Below, piece after piece: positions 7,238 through 23,453 of a stretch of DNA of 23,453 nucleotides. Where the stretch lies: IMG/VR virus record IMGVR_UViG_3300025849_000227, positions 1 to 23,453 of that record. One strand, 5' to 3'. A program made the translations under genes and the position numbers. Source of the stretch: a virus. The stretch's first letter is position 1; the number at the start of each line of letters is the position of its first letter. The notes beneath the pieces are model-generated. The model made no database searches and had not been told where the DNA came from. It worked only from the letters and a program-made list of their open reading frames with translations.

Positions 7238-10200
7238 ATGGCAGAATTAAAGCACACTTTTCAGTCCGGAAGGATGAACAAAGACTTTGATGAAAGGTTA
7301 CTTCCAAATGGTGAATATAGAGATGCTCTAAATATTCAAATATCTTCTTCAGAAGGCTCAGATGTTGGCGCTATTGAAAACATACTAGGTAATAAAAAGT
7401 TATCTAGTATTAATTTAGAAAATGCTAAAACAATTGGAGTAATTGCCCACACTTTAAAAGATAAAATATATTGGTTTATTTGTGCAGATAATATTGATGG
7501 CATATATGAATTTGATCAACAACAAGGAACAATATTACCTATACTTATTGATAAAAAAATAACGTTATCTAAGGTATTAACTTCAATAAATGTTGAATCA
7601 AATAGTGATAATGAATTAGTACTTGATAATATATTAACAACTGAGTTAAAAGAGCTGTGTGGCGCTTTGCCATTAAACAATGATGATGAAGTATTGGTTA
7701 ACAACAACCTAGACTTAACCTGTGCAGATCCTTATATTAAACTTTCAATACCTAAAAATTCGGTATTAAGAAAAGAGAATAATAAATATGTATTTAAGAA
7801 TGTAGAGTATAATGGTCAATCTTATGGTAAGATAGATTTAAGCTTTGTGTATAGCACAGACTCTGTTTTAAATTTTTCTAAAAGCAATTTAATTACAGGT
7901 GTAAACATCATTGATGATATGTTATTCTGGACAGACAACTTAAATCCTCCAAGAAAAATAAACATCCCTACGTTTAAAAAGTTTTCTAACACTGTGTACC
8001 CAAATACGCCCGGTATTTTTAATACTCAAACAGTAGTAGTATTTGACAAAAAAGACACGAATGGAAATGTTACACAAGGTAATAGAACTTTTACTGAAGA
8101 AGATATAAAAGTAGCTAAAAAAGCCCCTTTATTTGCTCCATCTTTGCTGTTAGAAAAATTCTTAGGTAATGGAATTTATGAAATAAATAAAAAAATAAAT
8201 TTTTACCAGCAATCATCAGCTGGTGTAGCCGGACAGGGTAACAAAGTGATAGGTGTTGGTGATGATCTTACTCTATCTGGTTTAACAACATTACCTAGTT
8301 GGAGTGTTGGTAACAGTATAAGATTAACTGGAGATGAAATAAGTGGAAACGGGGAACTAAATAGCATAGGTACTTTAAAGTCTATTGGTGTGGATAGTGC
8401 TGTAATAACTATAACAAGTCAAGATAATATACCTACTATTAATGATTATTCTGTTAAACTAGAATTAATAGTAAAAGATCCTATATACGAATTGGAATTT
8501 GTTAGATTTGGATATAGATGGAAATATAAGGATGGTGAATATTCTGCATTATCTCCATTTTCAGAATCTGCTTTTATACCCGGCGAATTTGATTATGATG
8601 GTAAAGAAGCATTCAATAAAGGAATGCAAAACAACATAAGAAAAATAACATTGTCTAATTTTGATTTAGGAGACGACAATATTGAAGAAATTGAAATATT
8701 ATTTAAAGAAACAAGAAATCAAAATATATACACATTACAAGCTGTAAAAAGATTAGGTTTTTTAAACAATTATGAAATAACTAAAAAACAAATACATTCT
8801 GTATTGCCTAATGATCAATTGCTAAGGAGTTGGGATAATGTACCAAAAGTTGCTAAAGCACAAGAAGTTACAGCTAATAGGATAATATATGGTAATTACA
8901 AGCAAAACTATGATATATATAATGAACCTATTTTTGATATATATTTAGGTGCAAGAAGTGATAACTTTAAAAGATCAATAAAATCAAACAGACCATATCA
9001 AGTAGGAGTTGTTTATATGGATAGTGATAACAGACACTCTCCTGTGCTTTCAAATCAAACAGGTACAGTTTTTGTTGATAAAAATCAATCTGTTTTTGAA
9101 AACTGCTTTAACATATCTTTAAAAAACAATCCACCCGCTTGGGCAAAATATTTTAAATATTATATAAAAGACACTTCCAACGAATATTATAACTTAACAG
9201 CTGACAAATTTTACCATGATACCGAAAATGGATATAGTTATATTTCTTTTCCATCTACAGAACGAAATAAAATAACAGATAAAACTTATTTATTATTAAA
9301 AAAGCAGCACGGGGCAAATAAAGCTGTTTTAAACACTAACAATAGATATAAAGTTATTGATATATTTAATGAACCACCTGATTTTGTATCTGAAATTAAA
9401 AAACAAGTATATAGCCTTTCTAATATACAATTTGGAGCTGGATTGCAAATTGAAACCCCTAAAACAACCAAAGCTGACAATTTAACGCCTACTGAAAATA
9501 GTACAAAAATTGTTATTTTAGCCGCTAATAACGGAGATCCTGACAATACACCATTAGGTATATCTAACACAGATAAAGAACAAATTTTAAAAAATAGATA
9601 TATACAATTTCAAATAGGGGGTCAAACAAGCAGACCATATAAAATAAAAAAATTAAATTATAATAATTTATTGGTTGACGATTTAGAGCTTACTATTGAT
9701 GAGTCTTTTGGAAATGATGTAAATTTTATATATAACGCAGATGACACATTAAAAGACGGTATATCTATTAATATATTAGAAGTAAAAAACGAAAAAGGAG
9801 CAAAGCAATTTGATGGAAGATTTTTTATTAAAATTAGAACAAACGCAACTTTATTAAACTCTGAAGTTTCTTCTAATATAGTAGGAGAATATCAAAATGT
9901 AGATTCTTACCAATTAGATGGAAACCATGCCTACAAAAACAACAGACAGCGTTCTAAAAATAATGCAGACGAAAACCCGCAATATCCAATTTGGGTTGCA
10001 AGGGGTGGTTTAAAAACAAATGCGTTTACATTAGCTGGTATTAATGGAAAATTTAGTATTCAATTTGAAGAGGCTACTGTAAACCAAGATGAATCAATTA
10101 TTAAAAAATTTAGTGTTGGAACTAAATTACAATTTGGCACTGATGAAACTATTTATGAAATAAGTAAAGCTGTTTTTACTAAACTTGAACTAAATAATAA

Positions 10201-13200
10201 AAAGGAAGTATCTAAAGTGTCTTTAGAATTTGCAGACGCAGAGGGTAATAATTTACCTTTAAAAGAGGAGGTGGTGATACCACAGCAGCACGCAAAAGAA
10301 AAAGTTACATTAAATATAGTTGAATCGGTTGACGATGAAAAAGCTTTTTTTACTAAGAATCCAGCAATATTCGAAACAGAACCATTAGAATCTATTACAG
10401 AGCTTGATCTTTATTTTGAAACAGAAAAAGCATATCCAATTAGTGAACATGGCAAAGTGCAATCATTAAAATGGTATAATACTTTTTGTTTTAAAAATGG
10501 GGTTGAATCTAATAGAATTAGAGATGATTTTAATAATATTTATATAAGCACTGGTATTAAGGCTTCTGCTACTTTATCAGAACAATTTAAAGAAGAACAC
10601 AAGTTTAATGGATTAATTTGGTCTGGAATTGTTAATTCAAGAACAGGCATTAACAAATCAAATGAGTTTAATCAAGCTAATACAATAACTAAAGATTTAT
10701 TACCATCATATGGTAGTATTCAATTACTAGACGCATGGGACGATCAAATAATTATTCTTTGTGAAGATAAAATTGTTAGAGCTTATGCTGATAAGGATAT
10801 ATTATATAATGCAGATGGTAATCCAAACGTAGTAGCAACTAATAGAGTAATTGGAGCAATACAGCCTTATTCAGGAGAATATGGTATATCAAACAATCCA
10901 GAGTCTTATGCTAAATATGGCTTTAGAGCTTATTTTACTGATAAAATGCGTGGAGAAGTGTTAAGGTTATCAAGAGATGGTCTTACTCCTATTAGTAAAT
11001 TAAATATGTCTTCTTTTTTTAAAGATAGGTTTTTTAGCAAAGGCTGTTATAACTCAAATACAGAGTTAACTGATATTCTTGGATCTTACGATAATTACAA
11101 TGATTTGTATAACGTTTCTTTTGCAAATCAAGATACGGTTTGTTTTGATGAAAATGTTAGCGGGTGGGTAACACGAAAATCTTTTGTTCCAGAAAATGCA
11201 ATTTCCTTAAATAATAAGTATTATACATTTGTAAATGGAGAACTTTGGGAACAAGACACTAAGGATGTTCCTTATAATAATTTTTATGATACACAATATA
11301 ATTCTTTAGTTGAGCTAGAAATTAATGATAACCCTTCAGTTATTAAAAACTATAAAACACTAAGTTATGAAGGAAGCTCGGGATGGACAGCAAATATTGT
11401 AACTGATCAGCAAAAATCAAATGATTTTGCGTTTATTCCTAAAGAAAACAAATACTTTACTAATATTCCAGGAGAAGTAAGAACTATTGAAAATGTTGAC
11501 CCTAAAAATTTTAACTTTCAAGGGGTTGGGCAAGCTTTATCTATAAGCGCAATTAGTGCAGCAAATAATACAAACATTACTTTTGATATATCTCCTAGTG
11601 AGACTACATCGTATAAATCATCGCCCAAGATTTTAACAAATACTCCTGGAGCAAAACTGCCTTCAACTGTTGATATAAAAATATTTTCAAAAAATAACTA
11701 TACTTTAGATGCAAGCAAGTTTAATTTAAAAAATGTTATTGCAACTAATGATGGTGAAGACGTTATTTTAACTTACACACATGGTTTAAAAATTCAACCT
11801 TCTGCAAATAAAAGTATAAACTTGGAATTATGCAAAATTAATTTTGCATCTAAAAAAGATATATCAACAACAGGTAACTATGTTTTGAGTGGTAATAATT
11901 ATACAACAACCAAGGGCAGCGGAAATTATTCTGTTATTGGTAATACTAACGTAATAAAAAATATTACCTCAAGAACAATAACTCCTGCTGATGGTTGGAC
12001 AATAACAGAGGCTGATATTGCTATTGACAATCCTAATATATTAATAACAAAACAAACAAATAAAGACGGGAGTATAACGTTATTTGAAAAAATAATTATA
12101 GGGGAAGGTAGTGAAACAAATATAAATTATACAATAACAGTAAACCCTAAAGAAGAAGTAGTCAAAACCAAAACAATACTTTACTACGATTTAGATGAGT
12201 CTAACGTAACACCTAATAACAATATTAGATTATTAGAAGTTTATGGTGATCCTGGTGCTGAATTTGCTTATATATTAACGGATACTTCTGGAGAAATTAA
12301 AAAAGAAATTAAACTTACAATGCCCAATTCTGGTGTTTATGAGGACACTTTAATTTTTCCAACCGGTACAACAGACGAAACGTTTAATGTTAAAATAAGC
12401 TCAGGAGACGGGACGGTTTTAAGTTCAGATATTGTAGATGCGGTAATATACAGAAAAGCTAAAGCAGCACTATCTTTTACTTTCATATCACAATTTAATG
12501 ATGTTGTAAGTAACAAGGTAACGCTAAAAGGTTTTACAGGTGATGTAATTAGATCCTCTTTTTCTCAAATTATACAACTTCCTACAGCGGTTTACACGCT
12601 TCAAAGACAACCCCAAAAATCTGATATTGTTTTTGATTTAGCTGGAGATAATATTAATATTTATAATCTTAATGCAGTATTAGATGATGTTGCTGATACT
12701 TTGACCATTACAGGTGAAATTGAAGTTGACAATATAATTGAAAACAATAAAGGTATATTAACCTTAGATAGTATTATAAATGAACAAATAACATTAACTA
12801 TTGATTTTTCAAATATAACAACCAACTCATTAGCTACAACAAATTATTCATGGGATCCAAATCCAACAACACATACAATAACAGGTGGTAAAAAACTACC
12901 TGCTGAAATATTAAATAGTTATAATTTTACTTTAACTCCAACGGCAGGTTATAGATTTTTAAATTCTATAACCAATGAAAGTTTTGTTTTAGTCAATGCT
13001 TCTAATAATAATGTGTTGAGTACTTATGCAAATAATAATGAATTAACATTAAGTATTGATGATGATGGATTAAAAATAGGTTTTGATACATTAAAATTCA
13101 ATCTTCCTGATTCAACACAAACAATAACTATAAGACCAACAGCGCAAATATCAGAATTAATTACTATTGACTCTTCATATAGCTTATTATACGTTCCTTT

Positions 13201-15268
13201 AGATAGTGAGGATAGACTATTCGCAAATAAACTTATACTAGGTGAGCTAACGGATGCTTCTAATCAAAACTTTTTATTCCAAAAAATATTTAAAATTGAT
13301 AGAAAAGTTTCTCAAAATGAAGATTACACTAAAATATTTTCAACAACTGGTCACACAATTAATTTATTAGATAACGAGCTTTCTTTAGCTACGGCGGGAA
13401 CATACACGGATATAAATGGTAATAGTAAAACAATAACTAGTAACATAGAAATTAATAATAATAAAACGGAATTAACTTTAAATATACTTGCCAATATAAA
13501 TGCTAATCCTGAAAAGGCTTTAGGTAGAGTAGAGTTTGATTTAGCAACAGAAGAGTCATATCAAGTTATTGAATTGCAAAAAGGTGATTGTTTCTCTACA
13601 TCATCTTCGTTCAATGCTAGATTGTTTAATATTGATCCTTTAAATGCAGACCCTGCCATAGGTGGTTATTTAACAAAATACACCTCATCTGAAGAAGGAG
13701 TAAGTAATGGGGAAGTAGAATTAGAAAATACTTATAAAATAGTTGGAACAGGTTATTTAATTAAAACAACAAAATCGGATCCATTTAGTGTGGATGTAAT
13801 AAAAGACATTGAAGAATGTAATCTTGATCAAGACGGTGATGGTGTTAATGATGATTTAGACGCATTCCCATTTGATCCTACTGAATCTTCTGATAATGAT
13901 AAAGATGGGATAGGAGATAATGCAGATCCAGATGATGATAATGACGGATGGTCTGATGCAGAAGAAAAAGCATATGGTACAGACCCTAAGGATCCTAATA
14001 ATAAACCTTTAGATACAGATGGTGATGGAACGACTGATTCATTTGACACAGATGATGACAATGATGGGTGGAGTGATACAAAAGAAGGCACATATGGCAC
14101 AGACCCACAGGATGCAAACAGTAAACCTTTAGACACAGACGGTGATGGAAATCCAGATTCAGCTGACACGGATGATGATGGGGATGGAATTAGCGATATT
14201 GATGAAATAGCCGCGGGAAGTGATCCACTCGATGCTAATAGTAAGCCACCCGCGGACACAGATGGAGATGGGATTATTGATAGCGAAGACTTAGACCCAA
14301 CTAGGCCAAGTATAAGCAGTGCAAATGATTTTTCATTTAACACTGACCATTATAGTGATAGTAGTTACAGCCCTAGAAGCAATGGTCAAGTAAGATATTA
14401 CTACAGAGGGGCTAGTTCTGGGTATATAATACCAAGATTAAACAGGTTGCCTCAAGGCATAGGTATTAGTCTTTTAACTTGGAAGGCTAGAACGGTAAAT
14501 GCACCTTGGGTAAATATTAAAAACACAACAGGACAAGTTATCGAAGATGATAAAATTCAAGATAAAAAAATATTCACAGAAGGTGATAGTGTTAATTTTA
14601 ATATTTCTGAATTAACTTCTGAAGACGATAGAGAAGGCAAAATTGCCGTAGATTTTTATTATCAAAATAAATTTATTCTAACAATAGAAGAAGACATAGA
14701 CCAAAAAGCTGCTGTTTTTACCCCTACCGCTTTAACAAGTGGAGAGGATCTACCCACTCCAACTTCAGCAAATATAGATCAAAGTTCTAAAGCATGCCAG
14801 GCTATTTTAAGACCAAGTGCTGGAGGTAAAACTTTTCCTCAAATATTAGAATATGATTTAGGATCAGGCACTGGAACTATAAATATGTATTTTAACGCAG
14901 TGCTTAAACCTGATAGATTTGTTGTTGTTTATGATGGTGAAATAAAAATTGACACTGGGTATATAACAAGACATAGAGACGGTTATGCACAAGGTGACAT
15001 AAATCTTGCTTTAGATGCAAAAAGTATTACTAGAACAAATGTAAGATCCCAAGTTTCTGCTTCGGGTAATAGTGCAAGACCTATTGTGGATGGGGTAAAA
15101 AGAAATATTGCTGGAACAGATGTTCATTGGACATGGGAAAAAAGATCAAGTGTTTCAAAAGCATATGTATATGTTTATGCTCCACTAACAGGAACAAACT
15201 GGGAGGTAGCAATGTCTTGTCCTAATGAAGACATAGAGCTTACTTTTTACAAAGCCACATCGGGATAA
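7238..15268 (+). CDS. Giant tail hub / stabilisation protein fused to a fibre-like arm
   Basis: A 2676-residue single chain, far larger than a usual short-tail hub protein. Residues 8-52 (GRMNKDFDERLLPNGEYRDALNIQ, then VGAIENILGN) and 1210-1440 (PYSGEYGISNN, FTDKMRGEVLRLSRDGLTPIS, ILGSYDNYNDLYN, TLSYEGSSGW) match what I recall of phage stabilisation/hub proteins (T7 gp12 or P22 gp10 role). From about 1445 the chain is Asn/Thr/Ile-rich and beta-like, with a probable Ig-like unit at 1650-1735 (EVYGDPGAEFAYIL). Residues 2197-2357 are a thrombospondin type 3-like calcium-binding array. The final 120 residues contain YDLGSGTGTINMYFN (2539-2553), DTGYI (2572-2576) and APLTGTNWEVAMSCP, a distal beta domain I recall in marine phage fibre proteins. 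The likely role is tail hub plus host-surface contact. There is no frameshift or internal stop. Confidence 0.75.
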   Translation: MAELKHTFQSGRMNKDFDERLLPNGEYRDALNIQISSSEGSDVGAIENILGNKKLSSINLENAKTIGVIAHTLKDKIYWFICADNIDGIYEFDQQQGTILPILIDKKITLSKVLTSINVESNSDNELVLDNILTTELKELCGALPLNNDDEVLVNNNLDLTCADPYIKLSIPKNSVLRKENNKYVFKNVEYNGQSYGKIDLSFVYSTDSVLNFSKSNLITGVNIIDDMLFWTDNLNPPRKINIPTFKKFSNTVYPNTPGIFNTQTVVVFDKKDTNGNVTQGNRTFTEEDIKVAKKAPLFAPSLLLEKFLGNGIYEINKKINFYQQSSAGVAGQGNKVIGVGDDLTLSGLTTLPSWSVGNSIRLTGDEISGNGELNSIGTLKSIGVDSAVITITSQDNIPTINDYSVKLELIVKDPIYELEFVRFGYRWKYKDGEYSALSPFSESAFIPGEFDYDGKEAFNKGMQNNIRKITLSNFDLGDDNIEEIEILFKETRNQNIYTLQAVKRLGFLNNYEITKKQIHSVLPNDQLLRSWDNVPKVAKAQEVTANRIIYGNYKQNYDIYNEPIFDIYLGARSDNFKRSIKSNRPYQVGVVYMDSDNRHSPVLSNQTGTVFVDKNQSVFENCFNISLKNNPPAWAKYFKYYIKDTSNEYYNLTADKFYHDTENGYSYISFPSTERNKITDKTYLLLKKQHGANKAVLNTNNRYKVIDIFNEPPDFVSEIKKQVYSLSNIQFGAGLQIETPKTTKADNLTPTENSTKIVILAANNGDPDNTPLGISNTDKEQILKNRYIQFQIGGQTSRPYKIKKLNYNNLLVDDLELTIDESFGNDVNFIYNADDTLKDGISINILEVKNEKGAKQFDGRFFIKIRTNATLLNSEVSSNIVGEYQNVDSYQLDGNHAYKNNRQRSKNNADENPQYPIWVARGGLKTNAFTLAGINGKFSIQFEEATVNQDESIIKKFSVGTKLQFGTDETIYEISKAVFTKLELNNKKEVSKVSLEFADAEGNNLPLKEEVVIPQQHAKEKVTLNIVESVDDEKAFFTKNPAIFETEPLESITELDLYFETEKAYPISEHGKVQSLKWYNTFCFKNGVESNRIRDDFNNIYISTGIKASATLSEQFKEEHKFNGLIWSGIVNSRTGINKSNEFNQANTITKDLLPSYGSIQLLDAWDDQIIILCEDKIVRAYADKDILYNADGNPNVVATNRVIGAIQPYSGEYGISNNPESYAKYGFRAYFTDKMRGEVLRLSRDGLTPISKLNMSSFFKDRFFSKGCYNSNTELTDILGSYDNYNDLYNVSFANQDTVCFDENVSGWVTRKSFVPENAISLNNKYYTFVNGELWEQDTKDVPYNNFYDTQYNSLVELEINDNPSVIKNYKTLSYEGSSGWTANIVTDQQKSNDFAFIPKENKYFTNIPGEVRTIENVDPKNFNFQGVGQALSISAISAANNTNITFDISPSETTSYKSSPKILTNTPGAKLPSTVDIKIFSKNNYTLDASKFNLKNVIATNDGEDVILTYTHGLKIQPSANKSINLELCKINFASKKDISTTGNYVLSGNNYTTTKGSGNYSVIGNTNVIKNITSRTITPADGWTITEADIAIDNPNILITKQTNKDGSITLFEKIIIGEGSETNINYTITVNPKEEVVKTKTILYYDLDESNVTPNNNIRLLEVYGDPGAEFAYILTDTSGEIKKEIKLTMPNSGVYEDTLIFPTGTTDETFNVKISSGDGTVLSSDIVDAVIYRKAKAALSFTFISQFNDVVSNKVTLKGFTGDVIRSSFSQIIQLPTAVYTLQRQPQKSDIVFDLAGDNINIYNLNAVLDDVADTLTITGEIEVDNIIENNKGILTLDSIINEQITLTIDFSNITTNSLATTNYSWDPNPTTHTITGGKKLPAEILNSYNFTLTPTAGYRFLNSITNESFVLVNASNNNVLSTYANNNELTLSIDDDGLKIGFDTLKFNLPDSTQTITIRPTAQISELITIDSSYSLLYVPLDSEDRLFANKLILGELTDASNQNFLFQKIFKIDRKVSQNEDYTKIFSTTGHTINLLDNELSLATAGTYTDINGNSKTITSNIEINNNKTELTLNILANINANPEKALGRVEFDLATEESYQVIELQKGDCFSTSSSFNARLFNIDPLNADPAIGGYLTKYTSSEEGVSNGEVELENTYKIVGTGYLIKTTKSDPFSVDVIKDIEECNLDQDGDGVNDDLDAFPFDPTESSDNDKDGIGDNADPDDDNDGWSDAEEKAYGTDPKDPNNKPLDTDGDGTTDSFDTDDDNDGWSDTKEGTYGTDPQDANSKPLDTDGDGNPDSADTDDDGDGISDIDEIAAGSDPLDANSKPPADTDGDGIIDSEDLDPTRPSISSANDFSFNTDHYSDSSYSPRSNGQVRYYYRGASSGYIIPRLNRLPQGIGISLLTWKARTVNAPWVNIKNTTGQVIEDDKIQDKKIFTEGDSVNFNISELTSEDDREGKIAVDFYYQNKFILTIEEDIDQKAAVFTPTALTSGEDLPTPTSANIDQSSKACQAILRPSAGGKTFPQILEYDLGSGTGTINMYFNAVLKPDRFVVVYDGEIKIDTGYITRHRDGYAQGDINLALDAKSITRTNVRSQVSASGNSARPIVDGVKRNIAGTDVHWTWEKRSSVSKAYVYVYAPLTGTNWEVAMSCPNEDIELTFYKATSG
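13931..14290 (+). repeat. Three tandem 120-base units coding calcium-binding TSP3-like repeats
   Basis: Units begin at 13931, 14051 and 14171, each opening with GATGATGA and each exactly 120 bases (40 residues, D2232 onwards). Every unit codes DDDNDG-type or DDDGDG acid clusters, then an amphipathic segment, then a GTDP/GSDP turn, then DTDGDG. Units 1 and 2 are the most alike, including the phrase KPLDTDGDG; unit 3 has drifted. The spacing of aspartates is that of thrombospondin type 3 repeats, known to bind Ca2+ and stiffen extended proteins. Related acidic sequence without the full 40-residue spacing precedes the array from 13826, and a degenerate tail runs to 14308. Confidence 0.85.
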
Positions 15269-15609: not shown

Positions 15610-16404
15610 ATGAGCAATGGAATAAGAAAACCTGTACAAACTGTAGCTTCTGCTGGTTTTAATCCTGCGGGGTTACAACCTTTTGAAACTACTGGTCCAA
15701 CGGCAATGAGTGGAGCAAATATCAATGCAGCTCTTAAGGGGCCCGCTAGCTTAGGCAACCCTCAAAGTGGGATTGGAAAAGCAATTTCAGGCACCGCTCA
15801 AAATGATGCTGGGGCTTTTGGCCAAATTGCTGAAGGATTAGCTGGCATAGCTGGAGGGATTGTTGGTGGAAGAGCTAGAAGACAAGAACAAAGAGCTGCA
15901 AGAGCTGAATTACAACAAAGACAAAGAGAATATGAATCTTTTGAGTTTCAAGATCCGAGTGCTGGTATGACAAATCCTTATGAAGATTTAACAGTAAATC
16001 AACAACAAGCACAGTTTGCTTCTCAACAACAACAGCAAGGTTTATCATCCACATTGTCTGGACTACAAAGCGCGGCTGGTGGGTCTGGAATTGGTGCTTT
16101 AGCTCAAACCTTAGCGGCACAACAATCACAAAATTTACAGGCATCATCCGCTAGTATTGGTCAACAAGAGCGAGCTAATCAAATAGCTAGAGCAAGCGGG
16201 CAACAAAATTTAGAGGCGCAAAGATCTGCTGGGCAACAATATGTACAGCAACAAGAGTTTGGCAGAACAGAGCAAATGTACAACGTATCTGCAGCAAGAA
16301 AAGCAGCGGCTGATGCGGCTAGAAAACAAGCTACTGAAGGTTTAGTTGGAGGAGTTGGAAATTTAGCTGTTGGGGCGGGCAGAATGTTAGCCGGCGGACT
16401 TTAA
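15610..16404 (+). CDS. Small internal virion (ejection) protein, T7 gp14-like role
   Basis: A 264-residue Ala/Gln/Gly-rich protein, probably packed in the head and released into the host envelope with the DNA. Two glycine-zipper hydrophobic stretches are visible: 70-87 (FGQIAEGLAGIAGGIVGG) and the last 23 residues (GLVGGVGNLAVGAG, then MLAGGL). Between them lies a long polar helix rich in Gln (RARRQEQRAARAELQQRQRE, then QQQ runs). A basic cluster follows the first hydrophobic stretch directly, as in membrane-inserting peptides. It is the first of three consecutive long helical genes, the same order as T7 gp14, gp15 and gp16. I infer the role from composition and order; no enzymatic motif is present. 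Confidence 0.66.
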   Translation: MSNGIRKPVQTVASAGFNPAGLQPFETTGPTAMSGANINAALKGPASLGNPQSGIGKAISGTAQNDAGAFGQIAEGLAGIAGGIVGGRARRQEQRAARAELQQRQREYESFEFQDPSAGMTNPYEDLTVNQQQAQFASQQQQQGLSSTLSGLQSAAGGSGIGALAQTLAAQQSQNLQASSASIGQQERANQIARASGQQNLEAQRSAGQQYVQQQEFGRTEQMYNVSAARKAAADAARKQATEGLVGGVGNLAVGAGRMLAGGL

Positions 16405-16415
16405 AATAAAATATT

Positions 16416-17756
16416 ATGGCATTAGATACAAGATTAATTGGACAAGCATTAGGTGAAGGACAGCCGGTAGATTTAGCTGGGGCTATTAGACCCGCTGTGG
16501 TTAGAGGCGAACAGGCTGTATTAAGAACTAAAGCTCAAGAGCAAAGAAGAAAAGAACTTCAAGCGCAAGCAATTTCACAATTACCACAATTAGATGAAAG
16601 TAAAGTTCCTATGCAAATGCGTGAATGGGCAATAGGACAAGCGTTAGAAGCTCGCAATGTTGCATTAAGTGCTATAAGAAATGAAGACTTAGACCCTGTT
16701 GAAAAACAAATGGCTATTAGTAATGCACAACAAAGTATAAGTAAAGTAGCCGCTAAAACAAACGATTTTAAGCAATGGATAGCTCAATTTGCTGATACTC
16801 AACCAGATGACCTTAGTAAGCTTAATAGTCCTGAATTAATGGAAAGAGTTAATGATATTTACTCTGGTAAGTTTAAAGTTGATGGTAATCAATTTGTATT
16901 TGAAGATGGCACCGTAAAAGACTTTAATTCTTTAGTTAACACAAGACATATATCAAAAAGATCGGACGCATACATGTCTCAATTAAAAGAATTAGGAAAT
17001 GAGTACGAAAAATATGGATTACAGGGGTGGGATGAAACAGCTTTTGAAAATAAAATAGATAATGAATTGGCTAGTGAAAAATATACTGACGCTGATTTAG
17101 CTAGTATTGCTGTTGATGAATTAGGATTACCTGAAAGTGAAATTAAAGCAATACAAGATGATTTTGAAGATAATGGTATATTAGACGATGTAGATAAACA
17201 ATCATTAATTACAAAAATTAAAAATCAATACAAAACTGCTGCTAAAAGTGCTTATGAAAACTCTAGGAGATTGTATAAAGAAAAAACCGCACCTAAGCCA
17301 TCTACACCACCAAAACCTACGGGAAGGGAAATTGAAAGAGTATTAACATCAGCTGCTGCTCAAGAATATAGTTTAGACATTTCTAAATTTAAAAATGAAC
17401 TTGGCATAGCTGTTAACCCAGCTGGAATAGCTATTGGTGATGCAAAAGATGCTTCTTTAGATATTGAATCAGATAATTTTCCAAATTTAGTAAACAAATT
17501 AGGTTTTAGAATATCAGGCGTATTTAGAGAAAATAAAGAAGATCCAAACTCTAATATACAATCCATAGAGCTTAAAGAGCAAGGTGGTAATAAAACATTT
17601 GAAGTTGTTCCCGGTCAAAATACAATAAGCTTTTTAGAACAAGCATTTTTAATGCAGGGTGTTAATAGAATAGAGGTTCCTAAATTAATAAATAATGTAT
17701 TATACGGAACGTTTATCCCTCCAAGTCAAAAAATAAATACAGATTACGAAGATTAA
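16416..17756 (+). CDS. Middle internal virion (ejection) protein, T7 gp15-like role
   Basis: A 446-residue, mostly helical, soluble protein. Residues 1-125 are Gln/Ala-rich helices with no hydrophobic segment (LRTKAQEQRRKELQAQAISQ). Residues about 125-290 are acidic and helical. A Pro-rich linker (APKPSTPPKPTG) lies near 292-305. The C-terminal third mixes helix and beta (EVVPGQNTISFLEQAFLMQG). It starts 12 bases after the gp14-like gene and ends two bases before the giant gene, so the three form one translation unit. In T7 the middle ejection protein helps build the channel across the host periplasm. That role is carried over here from position and helical make-up, not from a recognised domain. 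Confidence 0.6.
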   Translation: MALDTRLIGQALGEGQPVDLAGAIRPAVVRGEQAVLRTKAQEQRRKELQAQAISQLPQLDESKVPMQMREWAIGQALEARNVALSAIRNEDLDPVEKQMAISNAQQSISKVAAKTNDFKQWIAQFADTQPDDLSKLNSPELMERVNDIYSGKFKVDGNQFVFEDGTVKDFNSLVNTRHISKRSDAYMSQLKELGNEYEKYGLQGWDETAFENKIDNELASEKYTDADLASIAVDELGLPESEIKAIQDDFEDNGILDDVDKQSLITKIKNQYKTAAKSAYENSRRLYKEKTAPKPSTPPKPTGREIERVLTSAAAQEYSLDISKFKNELGIAVNPAGIAIGDAKDASLDIESDNFPNLVNKLGFRISGVFRENKEDPNSNIQSIELKEQGGNKTFEVVPGQNTISFLEQAFLMQGVNRIEVPKLINNVLYGTFIPPSQKINTDYED

Positions 17757-17758
17757 TT

Positions 17759-20700
17759 ATGATTGAAATTTATACTGTAAATGGAACAACTTATAAAGTT
17801 GGACCAAATTCAAAAGAAAAATTTTTAAATGATTTTCCCAATGCTACTTTATTAGACGAGCCGGGAAAGATACCTCCTTCGCAGGAAGAAAAGCCGGGTG
17901 TGCTTGCGGAGGCAAATGCAACACCCGAAATATCTCTTACGGGATCACCATTGGTGGATACTTCTTTGGAATCACCAAAAACTAGTATTAGAAAAAAAAC
18001 TAGAGAAGGTGATTTAAAAAGAAAAAAAGAAAAAATATTAAATAATGAAATAGAAGATATTGCAGAATCATTTGAAGCATTTAATTTAGAAGAATTGTCT
18101 AATGAAGATCGCTTATATATTCAAGATTTAGCTCAAGAGCAATTAATAAATAATGCTCCAGACTCTCAAAATTATAATTTTACAGCAGAACAAATTGATA
18201 CAGGCGCTAGAAATATTTTAAATGAAGCAAATAAATTAGCACAAGAAGAGCGGGAAAAAATTAACAGTGTTATTAATATGGACATGTCTGAATCTTTAAG
18301 CAATGCTGCTTTAAATGTTGGACAAGATGTTAAAAAAATAAAAAGTTTTTGGTCAGGTGAATCTCCAGCTTTAGACCTAGCTACTGCAGCTGTATATAAG
18401 GCTATTTTTGGGCAAGAGAATGTCGATGAATTTGTAGAAAAATATCGCGGAGTGAGCATACCCGTAATGGGGCTTCCTGTTTCATTAACAAAAGGTCTTG
18501 GGACTAAAGAGATACTTAAAAGTATACCTAAATTAAAAGCGGAGCAAGAAAAAAGAAAACAAACATTACCTATTATTGAAAGTTTTAAGCAAGGTGAAAT
18601 TCTTAAAGGAGGAGCTGCTATACTAAGTTCAATGGTGAGTATGGTTGGTTCCGCTGGTTTTGGCGCTGGTACTGTTGGTTCAGGTTTTTATGCGGATTTT
18701 GCTGCAGAAAATTATGTAACTTTTAATGAAGAATTAGCTAAAAGAGAAAATACAACTCTTGAAAATCTTATAATTGAAGGAAAAGATAATGCCAAAGCCC
18801 CCGTTGCCTTAGCTGGTATACAAGCCATGTCTGAAGTTGTTGGTTTATCATCCATGCTTTCACCTATAAAAAAGAATGGTATAAAAGTTATTTCAAATAA
18901 ATTTTTAGATTCACCATTAGGTGCTAAAGTATTAGATATATATAGTTCTGGAAAAACGGAATTTATAACAGAAAATTTTCAATTTGGGATTGATGAATAC
19001 AATAGAGTTTTAGGAAAAACTGGAGACTCCTCAAAAGCAGCATTAGCTATGGTAGAGGGTATGGCATCACAAGAAGGTCTTGAAAGTGGCTTACAGGGAT
19101 TAGGTGGCGCGGTTGGAATTAAAGGCAGCAGATATCTTTTAAAAGCAGCAAGCAATTTAAGAGCACCTGCTGACAACGAAGGTATACAAGCAGATATAAA
19201 TGAATTATCTGAATTGCAAAAACAGTATAATTCTACAGAAAGCAAAGTAGGTAAGGAAGGTATACAACAAAAAATTAATGATGTAAACAGCAGATTATCT
19301 TCAAGGATTACTAAAAGTAATGCTATAATACCTAAATTAAATAAAACAGAAATTGATGAGGTTAATTCAATGGGTGATCTTGCTAATTTGCAAGTTCAAC
19401 GCGTTAAAGAATTAAATAAAGAATTAGATGAGGGTAATATTAAAAGAAGTGATTATTTAATTGCTTTAGAAGGTTATAAGACAACTTATATTAACGCAAA
19501 AAACAGGATTAAAGGTATTGCTGATACTGCAGAAACTAAACCAGAACAAGTTGTAGCTGAAGAAATAGATACACAAGAACAAACTGCTCCATTAACAGAA
19601 GCAGAACAAGCTATACAAAAAATTATAACAAAAGAAAAAGTAGCCTCTAGCAAAGTTCAACAAATTTACAATGATAAAGGTATTGATGGTATTAACGAAA
19701 TATTTAAAGAATTTAAAGGTATAGTAGATAGAATAGTTGACAAGCGTAGAAATGCACCTAATTTTGACAGAGAATTGCTTACTTCTGAAATACAAGTAGG
19801 TAAAAGAGGTATTCTTGATTTAGTTAGGGCATACCCTAAATATGTAAAAAAACAAGAAGCTGCTAATCAACCTGTAGCTCCATTAGCTGGTTTTATAAAT
19901 AAGCAATTACCTAATAGAGCAATTGAAGCATCTCAAAGAATTTTAGGTAAAGAATTTACACAAGATGTTACTGAGGCTAAAGCTGTTACTGCTACTGAAA
20001 CTGCGGAAGATATTGTTACACAACAAGAGCAAGTAAAGCAAGAAGTAAAAACAGCATTAGCTAAGGATTTAAACTTAGATGAAACAACTCAAAATGATAT
20101 TGTAAAAGCTGTTGAAAAAACATTAGGTACTAAATTACCTGCTGTAACAGATAAAAAGTTTAGACAAGCTTTAACTACTGGTTTTAGAAATGAATTAACT
20201 AATACATTTAAAACGGTATTTGGTCGTCAAGCATCATACGAGCAATTTTTAAGAGATAATTTTGAAAAAATATATCCTGCAATTCCACAAGAAACTATAA
20301 ACCGTAATTTTAAAGAATTTAATGAAGCTGTTGTAGATCCTGAAACAGGTAAACAAGTAAGAGAAAAAACGCCTGAAGGCAAAAATGTGTTTAAAAAACG
20401 TGATATAACTAAAGCTGAATTTTTAAAATATTTTTTAACAGAAGGAAGTAACAAAGGTGCACGTAAAACTTCATTAGCGAAAGTCTTAGCTGATGAAATT
20501 GGATTAGATAATGTATTTGGAGCATTGTCAAAACCTGATATTGTTGAAAAGTTTAAAGCTATTCAAGAGTTACAAGGGCAAAAAGTTCCTAGTAATTTTA
20601 GATCTATAATATCACAAGCAATAAATAGAATTGATGATTTAATAACAGAATTAGATAAATTTGAACAAGATAAAAGTATATTAAGATCTGATTTTGGATT

Positions 20701-23453
20701 AAGTGTTCCAGCTATTAAAGTTATTAAATTATTCTTAAAAAGTGTTAAAGCTGGATTAAAAGCAGGGTTAACAATAGAAAAAGCTGTTTCTAATGCTTTA
20801 AAAAATATTGATAAATATTCTAAAGCTGAAAAACTATCGCCACAAGAGCAAACAATAGTTAAAAAAGCTGCTAAAAGTATTCCTGCTAAAGACTATACTT
20901 CTAAACCAGCAAAAGATATAATAAATAGAATTGATAAAGAATATGAACGACTATTTAAAGAGGAACAATCAAAAGCTATAGATGAAGTATTAATTCCTTT
21001 ATATAAAGATAATGTTAAAGATAAAACAAAAGAGCAAAGGATTGAATTAGCAAAAGAATTTTGGACATTATATTGGAGAACTTTTCAAAAAATAAAGGGA
21101 ACTAATGAAAAAGAAATGTATTCTATTATAAATAATATATTTGGAAAAGATTTTAAATTTACAAATAAATTAGTAGACGGTAAAAAATTTGAACCAAATA
21201 AAATTGACCAAACAAAAACAGCTCGCTTTGTTGAAAAATTTAAAAATAACAAAGAAAAAACAATAACTGAACAACATCAACAGGCTGATTATAATTTTGA
21301 TAAGTTTATTAATTTATTAATTTCTTTAAAAGAAAAATATAATAATAAAGAAATTTCTATTGATAGTGTTTATTTTTTGCTAAAATCTACCGGGGCAGAT
21401 ATGAATAGTGTTGGTAAAAGAATACAACGATTAGGCAATAACACAGATATTGAAGCTTTAAATGCAAATAAACGAATGACTTTAGAGCATAATAGTCCAT
21501 TCGATTTTACACTTAAAAATATTTTATTGCCTTTTATAATAAATGATATTAAGTCTTCAAAAGAATTAGTAAACATTTTAAAATTACAAAAATTAGAATT
21601 AATTGATAAAAACAAAGCTGATAAATTAAATAAGACAAAAGAGTTAAATTTAAAAACCACAATGCCCGATGGTTATAAAATTACAGATGACCCTATAATT
21701 AGACTTTTAAAAATATATCCTGACTTAAAAAAAGATGCAGAAAAAGAAAATGCAACATTAAGTGAGGACTTTAATAAAATTATTGAAGATAAAACTGGTA
21801 TTGCTGCTGATAAAGTTTATAAAAAAGCAAAAGCAGAAGTAGAGGGTGCAAGTAAAGGTAAATGGAAATTTTTTATTCCACCAGGGGCTGAAGATTTTGT
21901 AGGATTATTATATGCTACATTAGGCAAGGGTAAATTAGGGGATCAACAGATGGCATGGTATAAGTACAACTTATTAAATCCATATACAGATGCTCTTAAT
22001 AATATAACTCGTGATCGTGTACAATTAGCTAAGGACTTTAAAGAGCTTAAAAAGCAATTAAAAATTGTACCTAAAAACTTACGTAAAAAATTACCAGGTA
22101 CTCAATATTCTCAGCAAGACGCAGTGCGTGTTTATATTTGGAATAAGCAGGGGGTTGACATGCTTACCGAAGAAAACGGTATGGACAAAGCTGATTTAGA
22201 CCAATTAGTTGATTTTGTTGAAAAAGATTCTAATCTTTTAAAGTTTGCAGATCAATTAATGGAAATAACGCAAGGAGAGTATGCTTCTCCTGGTGCAAAA
22301 TGGTGGAACTCTGGCACTATTGATGCAGATTTATTAAAAACATTGAGCACAACAAGAAGAGCCAAATATTTAGAACAATCAGGTTGGACAGAAAATGTAA
22401 ACGCTATATTTTCAAAAGAAAATTTAAACAAGCTTGAAGCTGCTTATGGTAAACCTTATAGAATAGCCTTAGAAAACATTCTTAAAAGAATGAAAAGTGG
22501 TAGAAATAGAAGCTTTGGCGGAGATGCTTTAACTAGTAGATTTACTGATTGGATTTCCAATTCAATTGGTACTATTATGTTTTTAAATTCAAGATCTGCG
22601 GTACTTCAAACAATTTCTGCTGTAAATTTTATAAATTGGAGTGATAATAATATATTAGCCGTTGCTAAAACGTTTGCAAATCCAAAACAATGGGCTAAAG
22701 ATTTTATGATGCTCATGAACTCACCATTCTTAATTGAAAGACGTAATGGTTTAAAAATTGATGTAAACGAATCTGAAATTGCAGATCTAGCTAAGACGTC
22801 TACTAACAAAGCTAAAGCAATTATGGGCCAACTATTAAAAGCTGGTTTCTTGCCCACACAAATTGCAGATAGTTTTGCAATCGCATCAGGAGGGGCTAGT
22901 TTTTATAGAAATAGATTTAATTCTTTAGTTAAAGAAGGGTATACAAAAGAAGAAGCTGAAGCGATAGCTATGCGTGACTTTAGAGAAACAGCAACTGAAT
23001 CTCAACAATCTTCCGATCCTTCACGTATTAGTCAACAGCAGGCGGGGCCATTAGGGCGCATTGTATTGGCTTTTGCAAACACTCCAGCCCAATATGCTAG
23101 ATTAACTAAAAAAGCTGTTCTGGATATTAAGAATGGCCGTGGTGACCTTAAAACAAATGTTTCTAAGATTATATATTATATGGTTGTTCAGAACATTATA
23201 TTTACCGCTTTGCAGCAAGCATTATTTGCTGTTGCTTTTGGTGATGAAGAAGAAGAAGAAGATGAAATGAATAAAAAATATATTCGCATGGCTAATAGCA
23301 TGTCGGATAGTATTTTAAGAGGATTAGGATTTGCTGGTGCTGCTGTTTCTGTTGCTAAAAACGTAGCTATTAAAATAGCGCAAGAATCTGATAAAAAATC
23401 ACCTAAGTTTGAAGAAGCTGCTTGGAAGTTACTTGAAATATCACCACCAATAT
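17759..23453 (+). CDS. Giant internal virion (ejection) protein, T7 gp16-like role (3' end cut by window)
   Basis: The ATG at 17759 opens a frame that runs without a stop to the last base: 1898 complete codons, with the C-terminus missing. The N-terminus (MIEIYTVNGTTYKV, then FLNDFPNA) is a short module I recall at the front of large marine phage proteins. Residues 284-312 are a Gly/Ala/Val-rich possible membrane segment. Residues about 400-1200 are long charged helices. Near 1240 comes MTLEHNSPF; from 1366, SKGKWKFFIPPGAEDFVGLLY; at 1610, NSRSAVLQ; at 1748, SQQSSDPSRISQQQAG. A clear hydrophobic helix follows at 1804-1827, then an acidic run (DEEEEEDE). These C-terminal pieces resemble the giant 'polyvalent' or internal proteins of marine podoviruses. 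No lytic transglycosylase, protease or polymerase site was found. Size and last position match a gp16-type ejection protein. Confidence 0.72.
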   Translation, partial: MIEIYTVNGTTYKVGPNSKEKFLNDFPNATLLDEPGKIPPSQEEKPGVLAEANATPEISLTGSPLVDTSLESPKTSIRKKTREGDLKRKKEKILNNEIEDIAESFEAFNLEELSNEDRLYIQDLAQEQLINNAPDSQNYNFTAEQIDTGARNILNEANKLAQEEREKINSVINMDMSESLSNAALNVGQDVKKIKSFWSGESPALDLATAAVYKAIFGQENVDEFVEKYRGVSIPVMGLPVSLTKGLGTKEILKSIPKLKAEQEKRKQTLPIIESFKQGEILKGGAAILSSMVSMVGSAGFGAGTVGSGFYADFAAENYVTFNEELAKRENTTLENLIIEGKDNAKAPVALAGIQAMSEVVGLSSMLSPIKKNGIKVISNKFLDSPLGAKVLDIYSSGKTEFITENFQFGIDEYNRVLGKTGDSSKAALAMVEGMASQEGLESGLQGLGGAVGIKGSRYLLKAASNLRAPADNEGIQADINELSELQKQYNSTESKVGKEGIQQKINDVNSRLSSRITKSNAIIPKLNKTEIDEVNSMGDLANLQVQRVKELNKELDEGNIKRSDYLIALEGYKTTYINAKNRIKGIADTAETKPEQVVAEEIDTQEQTAPLTEAEQAIQKIITKEKVASSKVQQIYNDKGIDGINEIFKEFKGIVDRIVDKRRNAPNFDRELLTSEIQVGKRGILDLVRAYPKYVKKQEAANQPVAPLAGFINKQLPNRAIEASQRILGKEFTQDVTEAKAVTATETAEDIVTQQEQVKQEVKTALAKDLNLDETTQNDIVKAVEKTLGTKLPAVTDKKFRQALTTGFRNELTNTFKTVFGRQASYEQFLRDNFEKIYPAIPQETINRNFKEFNEAVVDPETGKQVREKTPEGKNVFKKRDITKAEFLKYFLTEGSNKGARKTSLAKVLADEIGLDNVFGALSKPDIVEKFKAIQELQGQKVPSNFRSIISQAINRIDDLITELDKFEQDKSILRSDFGLSVPAIKVIKLFLKSVKAGLKAGLTIEKAVSNALKNIDKYSKAEKLSPQEQTIVKKAAKSIPAKDYTSKPAKDIINRIDKEYERLFKEEQSKAIDEVLIPLYKDNVKDKTKEQRIELAKEFWTLYWRTFQKIKGTNEKEMYSIINNIFGKDFKFTNKLVDGKKFEPNKIDQTKTARFVEKFKNNKEKTITEQHQQADYNFDKFINLLISLKEKYNNKEISIDSVYFLLKSTGADMNSVGKRIQRLGNNTDIEALNANKRMTLEHNSPFDFTLKNILLPFIINDIKSSKELVNILKLQKLELIDKNKADKLNKTKELNLKTTMPDGYKITDDPIIRLLKIYPDLKKDAEKENATLSEDFNKIIEDKTGIAADKVYKKAKAEVEGASKGKWKFFIPPGAEDFVGLLYATLGKGKLGDQQMAWYKYNLLNPYTDALNNITRDRVQLAKDFKELKKQLKIVPKNLRKKLPGTQYSQQDAVRVYIWNKQGVDMLTEENGMDKADLDQLVDFVEKDSNLLKFADQLMEITQGEYASPGAKWWNSGTIDADLLKTLSTTRRAKYLEQSGWTENVNAIFSKENLNKLEAAYGKPYRIALENILKRMKSGRNRSFGGDALTSRFTDWISNSIGTIMFLNSRSAVLQTISAVNFINWSDNNILAVAKTFANPKQWAKDFMMLMNSPFLIERRNGLKIDVNESEIADLAKTSTNKAKAIMGQLLKAGFLPTQIADSFAIASGGASFYRNRFNSLVKEGYTKEEAEAIAMRDFRETATESQQSSDPSRISQQQAGPLGRIVLAFANTPAQYARLTKKAVLDIKNGRGDLKTNVSKIIYYMVVQNIIFTALQQALFAVAFGDEEEEEDEMNKKYIRMANSMSDSILRGLGFAGAAVSVAKNVAIKIAQESDKKSPKFEEAAWKLLEISPPI

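Follow-up and report, generated by a model that had tools for sequence, protein, structure and literature searches.

The DNA analysed here (the window) is a virus fragment of 23,453 bases taken in full from IMG/VR record IMGVR_UViG_3300025849_000227, and the features given below by window coordinates lie on its + strand. Genes were found in the order portal, capsid, other head proteins, a 2,676-residue protein (7238-15268) and proteins of 107, 264 and 446 residues, followed by a giant open reading frame. The portal matched PHROG 6547, and its relatives were from phages of Flavobacterium, Cellulophaga, Tenacibaculum and Maribacter and from a Manatee Spring genome (27-51% identical among the matches listed); the host is probably a member of the Flavobacteriia. 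A host assignment based on MAGs was rejected, as the module of the giant was located on five contigs (L105-L109) in Aliivibrio and Woesearchaeota MAGs, a result taken as probable misbinning. By its position the 2,676-residue protein is a probable tail protein; it carries a row of Asp-rich DxDxDG repeats (13828-14343), which we take to resemble thrombospondin type 3 calcium-binding repeats.

The last three genes of the window are consecutive, lie beside the tail genes and rise in size with the giant last, and a similar order was observed in relatives. The first of this cassette encodes a 264-residue protein (15610-16404) that is rich in Gly (14%), Ala (17%) and Gln (15%), has no Cys or His and includes two hydrophobic stretches; phmmer found relatives of it at 74 of the 87 loci, with locus L001 and duplicates counted. 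The second encodes a 446-residue protein (16416-17756) with no Cys and one His; its sole phmmer relative was in L001 (same phage), and a profile built from 68 positional equivalents failed to match it. The slot of this gene in relatives is occupied by a protein of 387-786 residues (among 60 listed, the split locus L006 aside). The giant gene (17759-23453) starts with ATG at 17759 and has no stop up to the contig end, and was thus correctly described at the outset as open-ended. Its frame (17759-23452) provides 1,898 readable residues with no Cys and two His, and about 105-110 C-terminal residues are estimated from relatives to be missing. L001, a second contig, was 100% identical to the giant over residues 1-854.

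The separate modules listed for the giant in a preliminary description of the DNA were all found to be present. The N-terminal unit of about 40 residues (17759-17878) is one of at least four kinds in the family as sorted by eye, and the N-terminus was 48% identical to L019 (residues 1-46) and 45% identical to L038 (residues 1-51). A helical region at residues 200-580 (18356-19498; model m6844785d7215, alignment A4) was 45% identical to L018 over 178-587, and residues 200-1020 were mainly helical in the predicted model (pLDDT 73), in keeping with the approximately 800 residues of helix proposed earlier. A Gly-rich hydrophobic stretch was located by hydrophobicity scan at residues 281-306 (18599-18676). 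Towards the C-terminus, a hydrophobic stretch predicted to form a membrane helix (residues 1804-1827; 23168-23239) precedes an acidic run, DEEEEEDE (residues 1829-1836; 23243-23266), and this pair was found in 78 of 86 giant frames (duplicates counted). The predicted helix is not the sole candidate, since stretches 349-367 and 1856-1874 were also above the same hydrophobicity threshold. Four patches had further been proposed to be conserved; those at 1366, 1610 and 1748 were invariant in nine aligned relatives, but the patch at 1240 (EHNSP, with E1243 and H1244) was conserved only in part, the EHxxP pattern being present in 18 of 77 unique relatives.

Most domains of the giant remained without a name, as was first supposed. 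No match was detected to Pfam (at the cut-off), NCBIfam, PHROGs or PDB sequences; the best Pfam likeness, to DEK_C, was short of the cut-off (E 0.024). Thus, the giant has no recognised enzyme domain. The full chain did not match any known polymerase, tape measure or unrelated enzyme family, and a recognisable polymerase or tape-measure identity was ruled out by the Pfam, PHROG, PDB and profile A3 results.

Related loci were collected from IMG/VR by two scans. The first, with six patterns spread over the giant, identified 11 loci; the second, with two short peptide patterns, identified 317 related stretches, 80 of which were kept. The giant family is thus common in IMG/VR, and tblastn with the giant against 50,697 phage records gave no match at E<=1e-5. 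The 80 kept loci were fetched by patterns of the C-terminal module, and 86 giant frames were chosen by a motif of the same module, so its presence in all of them is partly by construction; among the first-scan loci it was detected in 10 of 11, the remaining one (L001) ending before it. The frames of L006 and L008 are split and were left so. Removal of duplicates reduced the 86 giant rows to 77, and the HExxH and HAD counts given below are for 70 unique 5'-complete proteins of >= 1,800 residues. The conserved module spans residues 1333-1898 and on (21755-23452; profiles A2 and A3). By blastp, residues 1326-1898 were matched by 86/86 frames, residues 601-975 by 15-31 and residues 1001-1300 by 4-9, which indicates a constant C-terminal module joined to a mosaic remainder. 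Complete relatives of the giant are 1.6-2.4 times longer than T7 gp16.

The mosaic part was examined for individual elements. A zincin-like HExxH motif was present in 62 of 70 relatives and absent from the giant of the window. At the corresponding site (residues ~586-614; 19514-19600) alignment A4 revealed that the zincin domain is cleanly missing: L018 has HEVLH there and is 45-46% identical to the giant on both sides of the gap, and L001 does not differ from the window here. L021 and L067 are likewise without HExxH. Because the motif is frequent in the family, loss may be more likely than never having had the domain. A HAD-phosphatase-like motif, FDFDDT, was found in 27 of 70 relatives; in L004 it lies at residue 2079, about 175 residues ahead of the C-terminal module.

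Two further domains were delineated in the giant. The conserved helical domain at residues 625-745 (19631-19993) has a weak likeness to sigma-70 region 2, which we treat as a lead: profile A5 of this domain had a single PDB match, sigma-K (E=0.11), and hhalign with phage sigma factors aligned the expected segment, with 5 of 200 column shuffles scoring as high. Pfam sigma families gave no match to 16 members of the domain. The domain at residues 1165-1332 (21251-21754) carries the EHxxP motif and both His of the giant (1173 and 1244). Its profile, A6, had no PDB match; EHxxP is invariant in this alignment of 17 sequences by construction, as its members were chosen by the motif.

Structure prediction with AlphaFold2 gave pLDDT 73 and pTM 0.44 for giant residues 200-1020 and pLDDT 69 and pTM 0.53 for the C-terminal part of L002. 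Neither model had a convincing PDB match by Foldseek; a second look (VIA) at the middle model returned chiefly helical bundles and transporters that spanned mainly one part of it, and profile A2 had only two PDB matches (best E 2.6). When the C-terminal model was compared to BFVD, 54 matches were detected at E<=1e-3. Among the 50 listed, four were close relatives, eight were named polyvalent or PolyVal and 17 were nameless; MuF C-terminal, nuclease and acetyltransferase names and the structural proteins of Gundel_1 and elemoC were also among the matches listed. Beyond the four close relatives, the listed matches had 10-16% identity, TMq of 0.17-0.41 and rmsd mostly of about 20 A or above. By sequence, the C-terminal profile matched the giant of Gundel_1 at E 8e-10 when 44 proteins were searched, and profile A3 found none of the elemo, MW202828, phi40:1, Panino, T7, P22, N4 and crAss giants (best P22 gp16, E 0.27). 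A search with PF18857, which we take to be the family named LPD38, was negative for all 13 related records, but the control genomes were silent too, so that the search is uninformative.

Based on these fold matches, the C-terminal module was tied to the polyvalent-protein class. Similar to the polyvalent proteins of Iyer et al. 2017 (PMC5512222), the giant is a large, modular, multidomain protein encoded beside virion genes, most of its relatives carry a zincin-like motif and eight of its listed fold matches bear the class name; it differs in having no recognised enzyme domain. Signs of disparate activities were found mainly in the relatives, as HExxH and HAD-like motifs, and were restricted in the giant itself to the weak sigma region 2 likeness and EHxxP.

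Cysteine content set the cassette apart from the rest of the window. Together, the last three genes encode 2,608 residues without a single Cys, compared to 19 Cys in 4,465 residues for seven other open reading frames (Fisher 1.6e-4, with residues treated as independent and the portal, its 5' end cut, left out). A similar boundary was found in the family: giants (76 loci) had 5 Cys in 182,114 residues, the gene directly before (up1) 2 in 42,355 and the one before that (up2) 0 in 19,643, compared to 72 in 15,324 for up3 and 21 in 15,435 for up4. Downstream genes had 243 in 25,073 residues on the + strand and 1054 in 70,082 on the - strand (0.97% and 1.5%), so that genes adjoining the Cys-free block range from 0.1 to 1.5% Cys. 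These counts exclude 11 of 91 loci, namely duplicates, L001, L008 and the loci L012-L015 used as references; a giant frame was obtained for 76 of the 80 that were left. Slots were set by position only; some identical proteins were kept, the up1 of L006 is a piece of its split giant, and two open reading frames that occupy up1/up2 slots on the opposite strand, with 16 Cys among their 393 residues, were kept as separate rows.

In the 77 unique giants there were 4 Cys in 178,254 residues. Across the 86 giant genes, TGY codons occur five times in frame compared to 2,328 and 10,740 times in the other two frames; since TGY is rare in frame only, the loss of Cys acts on the protein. His is also low in the giant family (0.28%), a property particular to it and not general among the ejected proteins compared. 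Two of the four Cys of the unique giants, the only ones of the L018 giant (residue 1244) and of the L064 giant (residue 1806), lie in a shared NPWC motif, possibly a piece of a catalytic domain unable to lose its Cys.

To place this composition, proteins of other phages were compared. T7 gp14-16, N4 gp50-52 and the crAss001 cargo are described as ejected or stored cargo in PMC12633501 and PMC10172136; P22 proteins were counted as ejected based on an abstract, and those of Sf6, phiEco32, P-SSP7, phiKMV, SP6 and epsilon15 by annotation and gene order. Ejected sets had 1 Cys in 2261 residues for T7, 0 in 1309 for P22 and 0 in 4294 for N4 (together 1 in 7,864), and ejected or cargo sets 1 in 1326 for Sf6 and 7 in 7478 for crAss001, compared to 0.49-0.95% Cys for the other virion proteins of these five phages. 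In phiEco32, gp23 and gp24, the annotated ejection proteins, have 0 in 672 (p 0.07, not significant), and gp25 and gp26 are likewise Cys-free; epsilon15 gp13-17 have 7 in 2728, which is below its other virion proteins yet not Cys-free. Pooled over seven phages, ejected proteins had 16 Cys in 20,068 residues and hand-picked other virion proteins 157 in 23,816. Excluded from the ejected sets were two annotated internal virion proteins that contain Cys, P-SSP7 032 (4 in 148) and T7 gp13 (3 in 138), and from the other virion sets terminases, T7 gp7, gp7.3 and gp13, P22 gp14, Sf6 gp10, phiEco32 gp21 and gp22 and crAss001 gp33. Three sets fetched after the idea had arisen gave 1 in 2282 (P-SSP7; 5 in 2430 if 032 is included), 0 in 2416 (phiKMV) and 0 in 2487 (SP6), or 1 in 7,185 pooled. 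The lambda tape measure and the T4 internal proteins, which we assume belong in the ejected comparison, had 0 in 853 and, for the IPs with 501 residues of Alt, 2 in 889 (p 0.21, not significant; internal status of Alt from a record note). Cys-free proteins were also found outside ejected sets, namely several scaffold proteins, the N4 capsid, the Gundel_1 portal (0 in 821) and phiEco32 gp15 (0 in 722). Since some shorter proteins are Cys-free as well, the sign is strong only for a cassette taken as a whole or for a long protein. Among the cases examined, the giant family displays the most extreme exclusion.

Bacteroidota phages related to that of the window have comparable loci. Three-gene Cys-free blocks were detected in Flavobacterium phage elemo (0 in 4346), Cellulophaga phage phi40:1 (0 in 2440) and Maribacter phage Panino (0 in 2545); the MW202828 block is less clean, with a 136-residue gene (3 Cys) and a 267-residue gene (1 Cys) near the giant. 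Giants among virion genes include phi40:1 gp101 (0 Cys in 1691 residues), elemo gp18 (0 in 3694), gp74 of Tenacibaculum phage Gundel_1 (2482 residues, 0 Cys) and that of Manatee Spring MW202828 (1 in 3859). The giant of the window is linked by sequence profile to Gundel_1 only and by fold to elemoC and Gundel_1. In phi40:1, the positional equivalents gp099, gp100 and gp101 were deposited as virion proteins by MS/MS. The crAss001 proteins gp45-gp50, the virion cargo of a Bacteroidota phage according to PMC10172136, share the low Cys content but differ in that three are described there as RNA-polymerase-associated; profile search against gp45, gp47, gp49 and gp50 gave no match. Among well-known systems, T7 gp14-gp15-gp16 has the same three-gene order and size ranking with the giant last, although no sequence similarity was found and an SLT domain was detected neither in the giant nor in 15 related records. 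N4 gp52-gp51-gp50 has the same order and a protein of giant size, and the HExxH motif recurs in most relatives of the giant; by contrast to gp50, the giant of the window has no polymerase match and no HExxH.

Taken together, we favour, with a probability of about 0.8, an account in which the giant represents a new family of ejected, polyvalent-type proteins and is the largest member of a trio of ejection proteins encoded by a marine phage with a podovirus-like gene row. An alternative is a structural core or tape-like protein that is retained in the virion and avoids Cys owing to its long stay in oxidising sea water. The helical make-up would suit such a role, and scaffold proteins of several phages are Cys-free too; however, portal, capsid and tail proteins keep Cys in most of the phages compared, the HExxH and HAD-like motifs of the relatives are ill-suited to a passive core, and the same Cys-free signature is found in proteins that T7, P22 and N4 eject. 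We thus regard a retained core as unlikely. It is very improbable that the giant is an ejected N4-type virion RNA polymerase that has diverged beyond recognition: no PDB chain was matched at E<=1 and no Pfam polymerase family was detected, the C-terminal profile missed the N4 virion RNA polymerase, and separate sigma-like genes, found in two of three related IMG/VR records searched, suggest use of the host polymerase. These results outweigh a gene place and size class close to those of N4 gp50, which is likewise Cys-free and has an HExxH domain according to PMC12633501.

The third alternative concerns the cell wall. The preliminary description noted that no peptidoglycan-cleaving site is visible in the giant, which agrees with the lack of a Pfam SLT match, and suggested that such a site may lie in the missing C-terminus. 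The contig does stop inside the giant gene. In relatives, however, 96-200 residues (median 112) follow the SPP motif, the point where the contig breaks off, in 66 of 71 unique proteins with a stop, the other five having no SPP motif; and L002, 96% identical over the C-terminal module, ends 106 residues further with GWQDWEIG and a lysine-rich tail. Since tails of this length leave no room for a wall enzyme, this proposal was rejected as very improbable. The other possibility raised, a different route across the wall, was retained in a plain form, in that the wall enzyme is apparently encoded by a gene of its own. A search for SLT-type transglycosylases at E<=1e-3 gave no match in the 15 related records, with a control that was positive in 8 of 14 genomes, and a stand-alone small M15-type peptidase was found in 13 of the 15, several of which may be fragments, with M15_4 in elemo. 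The seven M15 frames that were read have 1-3 Cys each and so may encode lysis enzymes rather than ejected ones, although this argument is weak. A Glyco_hydro_108 search was uninformative, as its controls were silent too.

An ejection role for the giant in a T7 gp16-like position, as first proposed, is thus supported by the gene order, the Cys-free block, the MS/MS notes of phi40:1 and the fold match to giant phage proteins; the C-terminal wall site is the part of that proposal that failed. In the scheme that we favour, the giant would be stored in the head, leave through portal and tail before the DNA does, and remain largely unfolded while it crosses the periplasm. The 264-residue protein, in the position of T7 gp14 and N4 gp52, would probably form an outer-membrane pore, and the 446-residue protein, in that of T7 gp15 and N4 gp51, probably a periplasmic tunnel. 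The C-terminal module, with its predicted membrane helix, acidic run and, in relatives, lysine tail, may anchor the giant first to the capsid core and later to the inner membrane, such that the exchangeable N-terminal and middle part would carry effector domains into the host cytoplasm. In this phage, with the zincin missing, these would be the helical body, a possible sigma-region-2-like domain and the EHxxP domain.

With no Cys in any of the three proteins, no disulfide could trap them during passage, and we read the Cys-free block as the result of selection for chains that cross the oxidising periplasm unfolded. It may be a general rule that proteins threaded through tail and periplasm shed Cys against disulfides, so that the boundary of a Cys-free block alone would mark ejected proteins even without homologues; we rate this at slightly better than even odds. 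Such a rule has apparently not been reported, in that no account of cysteine exclusion in ejected phage proteins was found in the open-access literature. In the accessible text, no word starting with 'cys' occurs in an ejection-protein review (PMC8954989) or the N4 paper (PMC12633501), and 'cysteine' is absent from the crAss001 paper (PMC10172136), though disulfides in tail proteins are described there. Sequence comparison often fails to recognise giant ejected proteins, and a composition signature that sets them apart from other virion proteins would allow the ejectosomes of uncultured phages to be mapped even where homologues are lacking. The signature also bears on a question raised in PMC12633501 and PMC10172136, namely how proteins of this size pass through a narrow tail in an unfolded state and at which point they regain their fold.

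A further observation was made on G003, the 129.5-kb contig of locus L026, in which two similar, non-identical sigma-factor regions were located at 20865 and 83144, 62 kb apart; this contig perhaps joins two related phage genomes.
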